Of a stretch of 64,000 bases of DNA, positions 20,070-39,436 are shown one piece after another (position 1 is the first letter of the stretch; each line of letters starts with the position of its first letter). The position numbers and the translations under genes were made by a program. Source of the DNA: an uncultured Acidimicrobiales bacterium (GTDB taxonomy: Bacteria > Actinomycetota > Acidimicrobiia > Acidimicrobiales > SHLQ01); contig CALHTF010000005.1 of assembly GCA_938038815.1 (NCBI GenBank), positions 1-64,000 of the forward strand. Reading direction: 5' to 3'. The notes beneath the pieces were generated by a model. It searched no databases. It worked only from the letters and a program-made list of their open reading frames with translations, and was not told the origin of the DNA.

Positions 20070-20885
20070 ATGCACTCCGGTGATTTCTTAGGATTGGTTC
20101 CAGGCGAGGGCGACCTTTCGTGGACGTTGCCCGTGGTCGATGAGATTTGTTCGGGCATGGGTTCGTTGTTTGGCGGTGCGGCGCTGGGCGGTGCTATCTC
20201 GGCGCTCGAGCAAGCCGCTGATCGACCCGTTGCGTGGGCGACCGGGCAATTCATCTCTTTTTCAAAACCGCCGGAGGTGCTTACCGTCGATGTCACCATT
20301 CGAGCCGCCGGCCGTCGCACCACCCAGGCGTTTTGTCTCGCCCATGTCGATGGTCGCCCGGTGATCGAGGTGATGGCGGCGCTCGGAAATCGCCCGAGCG
20401 AAGTACACGAAGTCTGGGCCGAGCGAATCGATGTTCCGCCGCCGCTCGAGTGCCCGATTACCGTCTACCAGTCAGACAAGCCCACCATCTCGCACAGCTT
20501 CGAGCGCCGACTCGCTCGGGGGAAGCTCGATCGTTCGGCCGATGCCCCGATGACCGACGGTAGGTCGGCGTTGTGGTTCAAACTTCCGGCCGAACTCGAT
20601 GTCGACGCCGGCCTGCTGGCGATCCTCGGCGATTTCGTCCCGTTCGGGACCCACATGGTGGTCGACGATGGGGTTATCGCTGGTTTGACCAGCCTCGACA
20701 ACACGATTCGGGTCGTGAACCTGGTGCCGACCAGCTGGGTGTTGCTCGATGTGCAGATTTACTCGATTGCCAACGGGTTCAGTCAGGGGATCGTGCACCT
20801 GTGGGCCGAAGACGGCACCTTGTTGGCAACCGCCAGCCAGACATGCCAGGTCCGCAATCCAAAACCGGCCAAAACACTGGGGTAA
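20070..20885 (+). CDS. Acyl-CoA thioesterase family protein (double hotdog)
   Basis: A 271-residue protein with the length and duplicated layout of TesB-like double-hotdog thioesterases. The first hotdog contains LFGGAALGGAISALEQAAD, in which the long hotdog helix follows a glycine-rich turn, and ATGQFISFSKPPE. The second starts around SALWFKLPAELDVDAGLLAIL and closes with SWVLLDVQIYSIANGFSQGIVHLWAEDGTLLATASQTCQVR, the Asp-Gly-x-L-hydrophobic-A-x-x-x-Q ending typical of the family. Such enzymes hydrolyse acyl-CoA esters in the cytoplasm. The chain length is not predictable. It lies 35 bases after the nuclease gene and 40 bases before the zincin gene. Confidence 0.72.
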   Translation: MHSGDFLGLVPGEGDLSWTLPVVDEICSGMGSLFGGAALGGAISALEQAADRPVAWATGQFISFSKPPEVLTVDVTIRAAGRRTTQAFCLAHVDGRPVIEVMAALGNRPSEVHEVWAERIDVPPPLECPITVYQSDKPTISHSFERRLARGKLDRSADAPMTDGRSALWFKLPAELDVDAGLLAILGDFVPFGTHMVVDDGVIAGLTSLDNTIRVVNLVPTSWVLLDVQIYSIANGFSQGIVHLWAEDGTLLATASQTCQVRNPKPAKTLG

Positions 20886-20925: not shown

Positions 20926-22137
20926 ATGTCTTCTCCATCGGCCACCGCCGATCTCATTCCGGCTCACCGGTTCGGGCCCCTGCTCGCCGAGGCACGGCTG
21001 CGCAAGGGGGTCGACCTGGCGGCTATCGCCGAGCAATCTTCGGGACAATTCACCGTTGGTGAGTTGGCCGAGATTGAGGTAGGTCGCAACGCACTGCGAG
21101 AAGACCTACTCCCGGTCGTGAGCGCCCTCTACGGCGTCGATTGTGGTCGGATCGTGCCGCACCGGGCGAAACTGTTTCTCGACGTCACCGCCAGGCACCT
21201 TCGGGTTGGCACCGAGGTTGTCCAGCTCAAAAAGACCGACGAGCAACACATCCTCGATCGGTACTTATCGCTGGTCTACATGTTGCGCAACATTACGCCG
21301 GGCACCGAGATTCCGCTCCGGGGTGCCGACCTAGCAATCCTCGAAGCGTCGTTGCATGAACGGGCCGAGCTCATCGAGGAGCGACTTCTCGCAGCGATGG
21401 CCGCCAACGATCCGGTGCTGGCCACCATGTTGGCCCGGTTCAAGAACAAGCTGTGGGTCCCCGGCGCTGGCCTGTTGGTGGGCGCAGTCGGTCTTGGCGC
21501 CTTGGTGTTTGCTTCCCAAGCCGAAGCCGAAGAGGATTCCCAAGCGGTAGGCGGCGGCGACGTCGCGCCGAACGAGCTGGTCGTCGATGCTCTGGTCCAA
21601 CAACCGGCACCGGTGGTGAACATCGGCCTCACCGAGCAGAACGTCGTCGAGCACGATGGGGTTGAGGCGGCGGCACCTGAGGTCGCGGCGGTCGACGTAA
21701 AAGCCGAGGCGTTGGCCCTTGTCGGCCTTGATCTTGAGGCGACCTTTCCTGGGTGGTCGGTCGAGTTTCGCAACGGGGTCGACGGCTTCCACGGCATGAC
21801 CTTCGCCCTCGACAAGCGCATCGAAATCTACGTGCAGCCGGGCGACACGGCCGACGAACTCGCAGGCGTGATCGCCCACGAGTTAGGGCATGCGTTTGAT
21901 CTGACCTATCTCGACGACACCCAACGGATCGACTGGATGAACCAGCGAGGCATCACCACCCAGTGGTGGGTCGGCAACGGGGTCAACGACTTCGCCGCCG
22001 GCCAAGGCGATTTCGCCGAGACGTTCGCCGCGCACCTCACCGGCGATCATGTGCACCACGACTCGGCAGGCGAATTGAGCGCCGCCGACGCAGCATTGCT
22101 CGATCAGATGCTCGGATCGTTCTTACACGCCTCGTAA
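20926..22137 (+). CDS. HTH - transmembrane - zinc metallopeptidase-like protein
   Basis: A 403-residue protein of unusual composition. Residues about 10-70 resemble an XRE-type helix-turn-helix (FGPLLAEARLRKGVDLAAIA, ELAEIEVGRNAL). A helical region follows. One membrane segment is at about 176-198 (LWVPGAGLLVGAVGLGALVF), then an acidic linker. The C-terminal domain has a zincin motif, HELGH (His318, Glu319, His322) in GVIAHELGHAFD, and FAETFAAHLTG about 45 residues later, whose Glu365 could be the third ligand as in gluzincins. The predicted topology puts the HTH in the cytoplasm and the peptidase outside. It could couple extracellular proteolysis or sensing to gene control; that is inference. 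ATG 20926 follows the thioesterase by 40 bases. Its end overlaps the convergent mug-like gene by 34 bases. Confidence 0.7.
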   Translation: MSSPSATADLIPAHRFGPLLAEARLRKGVDLAAIAEQSSGQFTVGELAEIEVGRNALREDLLPVVSALYGVDCGRIVPHRAKLFLDVTARHLRVGTEVVQLKKTDEQHILDRYLSLVYMLRNITPGTEIPLRGADLAILEASLHERAELIEERLLAAMAANDPVLATMLARFKNKLWVPGAGLLVGAVGLGALVFASQAEAEEDSQAVGGGDVAPNELVVDALVQQPAPVVNIGLTEQNVVEHDGVEAAAPEVAAVDVKAEALALVGLDLEATFPGWSVEFRNGVDGFHGMTFALDKRIEIYVQPGDTADELAGVIAHELGHAFDLTYLDDTQRIDWMNQRGITTQWWVGNGVNDFAAGQGDFAETFAAHLTGDHVHHDSAGELSAADAALLDQMLGSFLHAS

Positions 22138-38218: not shown

Positions 38219-38224
38219 CTATTT

Positions 38225-38272
38225 CCCCTGACTCTGAGTCAGGGGACATTGTCCCGTGACTCTGAGTCAGGG
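38225..38272. terminator. Three chained palindromes between cysC and the convergent MFS gene
   Basis: Unit 1: CCCCTGACTC-T-GAGTCAGGGG, with 10-bp perfect arms (38225-38245). Unit 2: GGGACA-T-TGTCCC (38243-38255). Unit 3: CCGTGACTC-T-GAGTCAGGG with one mismatch (38254-38272). A T-run follows on the plus strand. TGACTCTGAGTCAGGG is thus present twice as a direct repeat. The stop codon of the MFS gene lies inside unit 3. It can fold as tandem hairpins or as one long alternative stem, and is likely a bidirectional terminator. Confidence 0.65.
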
Positions 38273-39436
38273 TTTTGGTTGGCGGAGGCCGTTGGCGAGG
38301 CTGACTACCGCAGCGATGCCGAGGACGAGCCCGAGCGCGAGGCGCAGGTTTGCTGCCACGGCGATAGCGCCGATCACCGCTGGGGCGCCCAAGAAGCCCA
38401 CTCGCATACCGGCCGACATGACCGCCAGGCCCGTACCGGCACTGTTGTCGCTGCTTTGGGCTGCAGCCTTGTAAAGCAGCGGAAACAACGGTGCTACGCC
38501 GATGCCGATGATGGCGTAGCCGACGAGCGTGGTGACCACATTCGATGCGGCGAGCACCACCACGAGCCCGATGGCCACCATGGCCGACCCGCCGATCATC
38601 GTTCCCCGCAGGCCTGTCGCTTCGATGACCCTGTCGGCGATGAGCCTCGAGGCCAACATGGCGGCCGAGAACACCACGAACCCGAGCCCCGCCTCGTCGG
38701 TTGAGGCGCCTCGCTCGTCGGCCAGCATCAGGGCACTCCAGTCGGCCGAAGAACCCTCGAGCACCGCGGTGGCCAAGCCGACCAGCCCAAGGAGGAGCGC
38801 TCCGGTGGTGATCGACCCCCGGCCGGTCGAAGCCTCCTCGGCGACGGGCGCGTCAAAGGGCAACAAGCGGGGACCCGCCCAGGCCATGATCGCCAGGCCA
38901 ACGGCGGCGAACATCAGCAGTTGGGTCTGCAAGCCAACACCGATGAACGACGCCGCGGTTCCGACCAAACCGCCCACGAGGGTGCCGACGCTCCACATGG
39001 CGTGCACCCGGTTGATGGTCGACCGGCCGAGCAACTCTTGGGCGTGTACGACCTGGGCGTTCATCCCAATGTCGGCGCCAGCGTCGGCGAATCCCAACGC
39101 AAAGAGCGCTCCGAACAGCACCCAGGCATTTACTCCTAGGGCCACCAGCGGCAAGATCAACACCATCAGCGTGCCGGTTGTCGAGGTCATTACCCGGCTG
39201 CCAAACCGGTTGGTGAGCACGCCCGACACGAGGCTGCCAAACAGTCCGCCGAGGCCCATGCCCATCAGCGCCCGGCCTAGGACATCCTCGTCGATAGCGA
39301 GCTGGTCGCGGAGCTCGGCGAGGCGCGGAATCCAGCTTCCTAAAACGAGACCGTTGAGGAAGAAGATCGAGGTAGCGGCGCGCTCAGCGCGTACCGCCTG
39401 TTGATGTTCAGCACCGCCCAGCGCCGTCGATGACAT
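38267..39436 (-). CDS. Major facilitator superfamily transporter
   Basis: A 389-residue polytopic membrane protein with about 12 hydrophobic segments. FFLNGLVLGSWIPRLAELRDQL in the first helix region, GSLVSGVLTNRFGSRVM (the MFS loop 2-3 motif, G-x3-D/N-R-x-G-R/S-R) and FADAGADIGMNAQ place it in the YbjJ/FucP-like branch of MFS. Transported compound unknown; related proteins are assigned to sugars or to efflux. The last codons and the TGA stop lie inside the palindromic terminator shared with cysC, with which it is convergent. No operon partner downstream; the histone-like gene lies 24 bases upstream on the same strand. Confidence 0.82.
   Translation of the reverse strand: MSSTALGGAEHQQAVRAERAATSIFFLNGLVLGSWIPRLAELRDQLAIDEDVLGRALMGMGLGGLFGSLVSGVLTNRFGSRVMTSTTGTLMVLILPLVALGVNAWVLFGALFALGFADAGADIGMNAQVVHAQELLGRSTINRVHAMWSVGTLVGGLVGTAASFIGVGLQTQLLMFAAVGLAIMAWAGPRLLPFDAPVAEEASTGRGSITTGALLLGLVGLATAVLEGSSADWSALMLADERGASTDEAGLGFVVFSAAMLASRLIADRVIEATGLRGTMIGGSAMVAIGLVVVLAASNVVTTLVGYAIIGIGVAPLFPLLYKAAAQSSDNSAGTGLAVMSAGMRVGFLGAPAVIGAIAVAANLRLALGLVLGIAAVVSLANGLRQPKP

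Follow-up and report, generated by a model that had tools for sequence, protein, structure and literature searches.

A membrane-anchored BldD paralogue fused to a gluzincin-like outer domain in Acidimicrobiales

A 403-residue protein from an uncultured Acidimicrobiales metagenome-assembled genome (MAG) is best read as a membrane-anchored paralogue of BldD fused to a gluzincin-like domain, and it was not classed as BldD itself. It is encoded in a DNA stretch of 64,000 nt, the whole of which is called the window here. BldD is the c-di-GMP-sensing master regulator of Streptomyces, a soluble repressor that depends on c-di-GMP. The domain order, the BldD homology of both cytoplasmic domains, the invariance of two arginines and an aspartate (R/R/D) and the conserved peptidase residues were read from sequences and structural models. 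The best explanation, which we put forward tentatively, is a membrane-anchored external gluzincin whose cytoplasmic BldD-derived module binds c-di-GMP or a related ligand and controls surface proteolysis from the inside out. The first-pass annotation had described a helix-turn-helix (HTH), one transmembrane (TM) helix and HELGH (residues 318-322) in a single 403-residue chain; all three are present and their order is conserved. That architecture held, its guess about reporting to transcription was left unsupported as worded, and it had overlooked a BldD C-terminal domain (CTD) with most of the c-di-GMP signature. The gene and its parts are as follows.

20926..22137, + strand: whole gene, 403 aa, ATG start, TAA stop
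20962..21141, + strand: XRE/BldD-type helix-turn-helix domain, residues 13-72 (PDB profile match, AlphaFold model, HHalign)
21163..21402, + strand: BldD CTD-like domain, residues 80-159 (profile-profile comparison, BldD CTD structures, NF050110, PF21179)
21286..21330, + strand: residues 121-135, RNITPGTEIPLRGAD, counterpart of the BldD signature RXD-X8-RXXD; R121, R132 and D135 kept, I123 in place of Asp116
21451..21519, + strand: transmembrane helix, residues 176-198 (hydropathy, charge; invariant G182-x3-G186 and G191)
21520..21690, + strand: acidic, low-complexity outer linker, residues ~199-255, length varying among homologues
21691..22134, + strand: gluzincin-like peptidase domain, residues 256-403 (invariant residues, AlphaFold model, Foldseek)
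21877-21891, + strand: HELGH, residues 318-322, within the peptidase domain
22006-22020, + strand: GDFAE, residues 361-365, within the peptidase domain

The stop-to-stop frame of this gene is 472 aa long, and its part before 20926 overlaps the preceding gene (20070-20885, acyl-CoA thioesterase-like) and is not conserved. Since conservation among homologues begins at about residue 10 of the 403-aa protein and the ATG at 20926 lies 41 bases past the stop of the preceding gene, this start was preferred and the longer reading of 462 aa is not needed. In a related genus (L037-L043, L051, L052), the fused gene lies between a MacB/FtsX-type ABC transporter gene and mshC/cysS-like genes, but one locus has the transporter gene in inverted orientation and another lacks it. 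The neighbours differ in the window's genus, and a fixed partner gene was rejected because none is conserved across genera. The mshC/cysS-like genes of the related genus are two in number and resemble those of class I cysteinyl-tRNA synthetases; a further neighbour encodes a protein of 256 aa with one TM helix that belongs to no known family.

Judged from sequence, the whole cytoplasmic half is BldD-like, with both the DNA-binding domain and the CTD related to those of BldD. Pfam HTH_31 matched all 17 homologues (best 3.9e-6; the window protein alone gave 0.0098, below cut-off). A cytoplasmic profile of 15 sequences, built without any soluble BldD, was searched against the PDB, and its best match was 2ewt, the BldD DNA-binding domain (5.6e-6); the BldD CTD structures 5tzf, 2mc4, 4oay, 4oaz and 5khd aligned at profile positions 100-147 (E 0.14-0.22). 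HHalign of the HTH domain against the soluble BldD DNA-binding domain gave 97.4%, and the CTD alone matched the CTD of soluble BldD orthologues of the same order over 73 columns (profile-profile, 94.6% probability, E 7e-8). The first-pass annotation had considered that the N-terminus might be a non-HTH bundle. In the AlphaFold model of residues 1-174 (pLDDT 80.5, pTM 0.54) this did not occur, and the closest solved structure was again the BldD DNA-binding domain (4ob4/2ewt, rmsd 1.9/1.7 A, 61 columns). The NCBIfam BldD model NF050110 covered both domains in 13 of the 17 members (best 7.4e-10, window protein 2.3e-4), and Pfam PF21179 (BldD-like_C) matched one of the 17 (1.8e-4). The window protein scores 20.9 bits against the curated NF050110 cut-off of 250 bits, which is not discriminating because the canonical orthologue of the same genome (L059) also misses it (138 bits). 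Thus both cytoplasmic domains are homologous to those of BldD and stand in the same order (NF050110, PF21179, PDB 2ewt/4ob4/4oaz/5tzf). However, none of 34 distinct membrane members carries the complete four-residue RXD-X8-RXXD signature, and instead of being soluble as BldD is, every one of them has one TM helix; on these two grounds the gene was not classed as BldD. Unlike BldD, the window protein adds a membrane anchor and an outer peptidase, and it lacks Asp116, the recognition helix and the positive charge.

The RXD-X8-RXXD signature of BldD binds tetrameric c-di-GMP, and its four residues are conserved in BldD homologues (PMC4151990). Arg114 anchors two intercalated c-di-GMP dimers, one of which is contacted by Asp116 and the other by Arg125 and Asp128, and both motifs are required for binding (PMC4151990). 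The counterpart in the window protein is R121-NITPGTEIPL-R132-GA-D135, with I123 at the Asp116 position. Arg121, Arg132 and Asp135 (BldD Arg114, Arg125 and Asp128) are invariant in the 34 membrane members, while the Asp116 position holds V, I, N, L, R, S, T, H, Q or E and never Asp. The soluble BldD orthologues from this order have the complete set of four signature residues, with Asp at position 116 in 31 of 31. Only R121, G126, R132 and D135 are invariant across both the 34 membrane and the 31 soluble CTDs, and Arg114, Gly119, Arg125 and Asp128 of BldD are thus kept at identical positions in the membrane forms. Given 8 invariant columns in 95, the chance that at least three of the four signature positions would be invariant is 0.0016, a figure that ignores relatedness and possible structural roles. 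Binding of a full BldD-type c-di-GMP tetramer by the membrane forms is unlikely, since the equivalents of Asn118 and Arg130 are missing and the position of Lys84, which contacts phosphate in BldD, is mixed. The kept R/R/D pattern fits a half site, because motif 2 and Arg114 of BldD contact one dimer and Asp116 the other (PMC4151990), and the natural reading would be half-site or different-ligand binding. Because contacts are lost and BldD needs both motifs, the site may also bind another ligand or nothing. As the same genome encodes a canonical soluble BldD (L059, RQD...RRDD) and 26 GGDEF domains (PF00990 search), c-di-GMP is very probably present in the organism. The presence of a BldD CTD with most of the c-di-GMP signature points to a ligand inside the cell and to signalling from the inside out.

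The hydropathy maximum of the window protein is at residue 178. The N-terminal flank of the TM helix has 3 K/R, and the C-terminal flank has 7 D/E and no K/R, and thus the computed topology is N-in/C-out. In the 17 full-length homologues, the TM glycines G182, G186 and G191 are invariant with GxxxG-type spacing. Between the TM helix and the peptidase lies a low-complexity linker of about 37 to 158 residues, often rich in Thr/Ser or Pro, a composition like that of exported tethers. Such a variable low-complexity linker is a poor transmitter of conformational signals. Two homologues carry a DHDHDHDHDHE run in the outer linker beside the zinc peptidase (L047:2328-3539, L049:6340-7545), possibly a metal-gathering tether.

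In the soluble orthologues the recognition helix is nearly fixed, mostly FKASVLGAYERGER, whereas those of the membrane forms are varied and often acidic (FTVGELSDLEAGHR), and the BldD helix is kept in 0 of 34. The net charge of the DNA-binding domain is -8 to 0 in the membrane forms and +2 to +8 in the soluble orthologues. HTH_3 domains from this genome, taken as a control, carry net charges of -6 to +5; since they reach -6, charge alone settles nothing about DNA binding. For this reason we dropped the acidity of the HTH as proof that it does not bind DNA, as other XRE domains of this genome have -6 and -4. The domain with -6 resembles ClgR, a DNA-binding activator (L128, G000:C59:55675-55833). 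From the sequences it is fair to state that the membrane forms have not retained the operator reading of BldD itself, and BldD-type transcription control by them is doubtful because the recognition helix and the positive charge are lost. BldD-box autoregulation was also considered and rejected: the window scan gave no box near the 403-aa gene, and its two perfect matches, at 38229 and 38257, are terminator hairpins. At 38220-38275, two perfect TGACTCTGAGTCA palindromes, which fit a BldD-box consensus, form CCCTGACTCTGAGTCAGGG hairpins with T-runs between convergent genes and are most likely a bidirectional terminator.

These results bear on the possibility that the protein is a membrane-tethered regulator working from the outside in, where the peptidase binds or cuts a substrate, or proteolytic release occurs, and DNA binding by the HTH is altered. 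The HTH fold is intact and nearest to the DNA-binding domains of BldD and ClgR, some branches of the family have XRE-like recognition helices such as FTPQFLSIVEKGR, and the ClgR-like protein of the same genome also has a negative HTH. However, the BldD recognition helix is found in none of the membrane members and the net charge is never above 0; moreover, the linker varies from 37 to 158 residues and short forms keep the cytoplasmic half without any outer domain. We consider this regulator unlikely. The guess that the state of the peptidase is reported to transcription is unsupported in the form in which it was made, given the recognition helices and the variable low-complexity linker.

The outer domain has a HExxH motif and a downstream glutamate as third ligand. 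H318, E319, H322, D325, W347, W348, D355, F356 and G361-E365 are invariant in 17/17 full-length homologues and in 33/33 aligned peptidase domains, and the catalytic residues are invariant in fused and stand-alone forms alike. Loss of HExxH in homologues, which the first-pass annotation had allowed for, was thus not seen; its possible third ligand Glu365 proved invariant together with H318, E319 and H322 (33/33), and its active-looking outer peptidase agrees with these residues and with the N-in/C-out topology. The AlphaFold model of the domain (pLDDT 89.5, pTM 0.85) has HExxH...E zincins as Foldseek neighbours, including selecase, anthrax lethal factor (1pwv), CapP, Acel_2062 and IrrE. The top match was selecase 4qhi (probability 1.0, E 0.036); the others had E values of at least 0.036, and TM-scores were below 0.52. 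No Pfam or NCBIfam family matched the outer domain above cut-off. Similar to minigluzincins (selecase, abylysin), Acel_2062-type zincins and ATLF/PPEP-like gluzincins, it has HExxH and a downstream Glu, but with a best E value of 0.036 and TM-scores <0.52 it is separate from them. We regard it as a gluzincin-like family not yet described, set apart by its sub-cut-off scores, and it is predicted from its residues to be proteolytic. XRE-M78 (ImmA/IrrE-type) proteins likewise combine an XRE HTH and a HExxH peptidase in one chain or system, but they are cytoplasmic, whereas a TM helix separates the two domains in the window protein. Peptidase_M78 matched only 2 of the 17 members (best E 0.19), and the domain was not placed in ImmA/IrrE (M78).

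A search for homologues with the same domain order, as the first-pass annotation had suggested, found HTH-CTD-TM-peptidase in 28 distinct proteins. A single-protein query against genome contigs gave no match, while an alignment query gave 26 loci in GTDB representative genomes, each of which bears the title of an Acidimicrobiales MAG; a match is present in 29 of 59 related genomes. A search for a phage origin gave no match. The window's own genome has matches at two further places. One (L002, G000:C43:57319-57903) has the HTH, the BldD-like second domain and the TM helix without an outer domain, and the other (L003, G000:C30:25093-25560) is an exported stand-alone peptidase of the same family with a long Thr/Ser-rich repeat linker and no Pfam match. 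Thus, both modules also occur separately in this genome, and several genomes of the window's family carry them solely as separate genes. The short paralogue L002 follows a GT2 glycosyltransferase gene (L002:666-1457) at a distance of 37 bases, a hint that the cytoplasmic module on its own may have a role related to the envelope. In the tree, all 34 membrane members form one clade apart from 30 soluble BldD sequences (SH-aLRT 100). Six zincin-less forms sit among the fused forms, which requires one fusion and one loss or two fusions, and the peptidase tree likewise requires two changes. The short forms were therefore not upheld as the ancestor. In genomes G001-G003 of the genus the fused gene forms a tandem pair, against a single copy in the window genome. 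Such pairs (L033, L034, L035, L046, L047, L049) are present in several genomes, in two family branches, and their linkers have diverged.

That the cytoplasmic half is idle, a passive anchor or relic of expression on what is merely a membrane-anchored peptidase, would be in keeping with the stand-alone exported paralogues (L003 and 22 others). We consider it very unlikely, as 14 cytoplasmic positions, ligand residues included, are invariant over 34 members and the cytoplasmic half exists alone with its TM helix (L002). Versions that lack the zincin are found both in this genome and in the tree, so the cytoplasmic half has a function that does not depend on a peptidase.

The order of cytoplasmic HTH, single TM helix and outer domain is also that of RodZ. 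The HTH and CTD could accordingly be protein interaction modules that place the peptidase at an envelope site, with the ligand residues being structural. The shared order, the acidic HTH and the lack of a RodZ-type HTH_25 protein above cut-off in this genome agree with such a scaffold, which we nevertheless regard as quite unlikely: the HTH is nearest to BldD and not to HTH_25, and a BldD CTD is present in which R/R/D is invariant where most else varies. HTH_25 is not among the Pfam matches of any member, and the HTH_25 search of the own genome did not return this gene. Unlike RodZ, the window protein has an enzyme-like outer domain and an extra BldD CTD.

In the inside-out mechanism that we favour, the HTH and the BldD-type CTD would be cytoplasmic, a single TM helix of the GxxxG type would cross the membrane, and a flexible linker would present the gluzincin outside. 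The cytoplasmic half would most likely no longer be a BldD-type transcription regulator. It would bind c-di-GMP (probably a single intercalated dimer, held by Arg121 and the RxxD residues) or a similar ligand, and would thereby pair two chains already joined by their TM helices. The pairing might gather, activate or restrain the outer peptidases, or their access to substrate, and TM pairing could substitute for Asp116 and the second c-di-GMP dimer of soluble BldD. Ligand binding, dimerisation, peptidase activity, coupling and signalling direction are thus what we infer. Against inside-out coupling, the flexible linker gives no obvious transmission of a switch to the peptidase. The lost ligand contacts, the lack of a gene partner common to the genera, the zincin-less versions and the fact that a negative HTH may still bind DNA also weigh against this mechanism.

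LapD is built of a HAMP domain and degenerate GGDEF-EAL domains, and its partner LapG, a cysteine protease, is a protein of its own. Unlike LapD-LapG, the window protein has everything in one chain and its enzyme is a zincin; a Pfam scan and the PF00990 genome search found no GGDEF-EAL or LapG-type domains in it. LapD-LapG demonstrates that c-di-GMP can control external proteolysis from the inside out (PMC3032553, PMC3032545). It shares the logic proposed here, internal c-di-GMP governing external proteolysis across the membrane, as an analogue and not a homologue. The narrower proposal of a single-chain, c-di-GMP-gated external peptidase in Acidimicrobiales, in which a BldD descendant left transcription, swapped the second dimer for TM-assisted dimerisation and converged on LapD-LapG, is somewhat unlikely.

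In the literature searched, we found no paper describing membrane BldD-like proteins. The widespread membrane branch in Acidimicrobiales would show that a transcription-factor module was redeployed as a transmembrane receptor. Its natural variants also allow a test of what Asp116 does (one c-di-GMP dimer versus two). If the inside-out reading is true, proteolysis at the cell surface might be under the direct control of an intracellular second messenger, and the fusion would be a candidate for such a c-di-GMP route in Actinomycetota.
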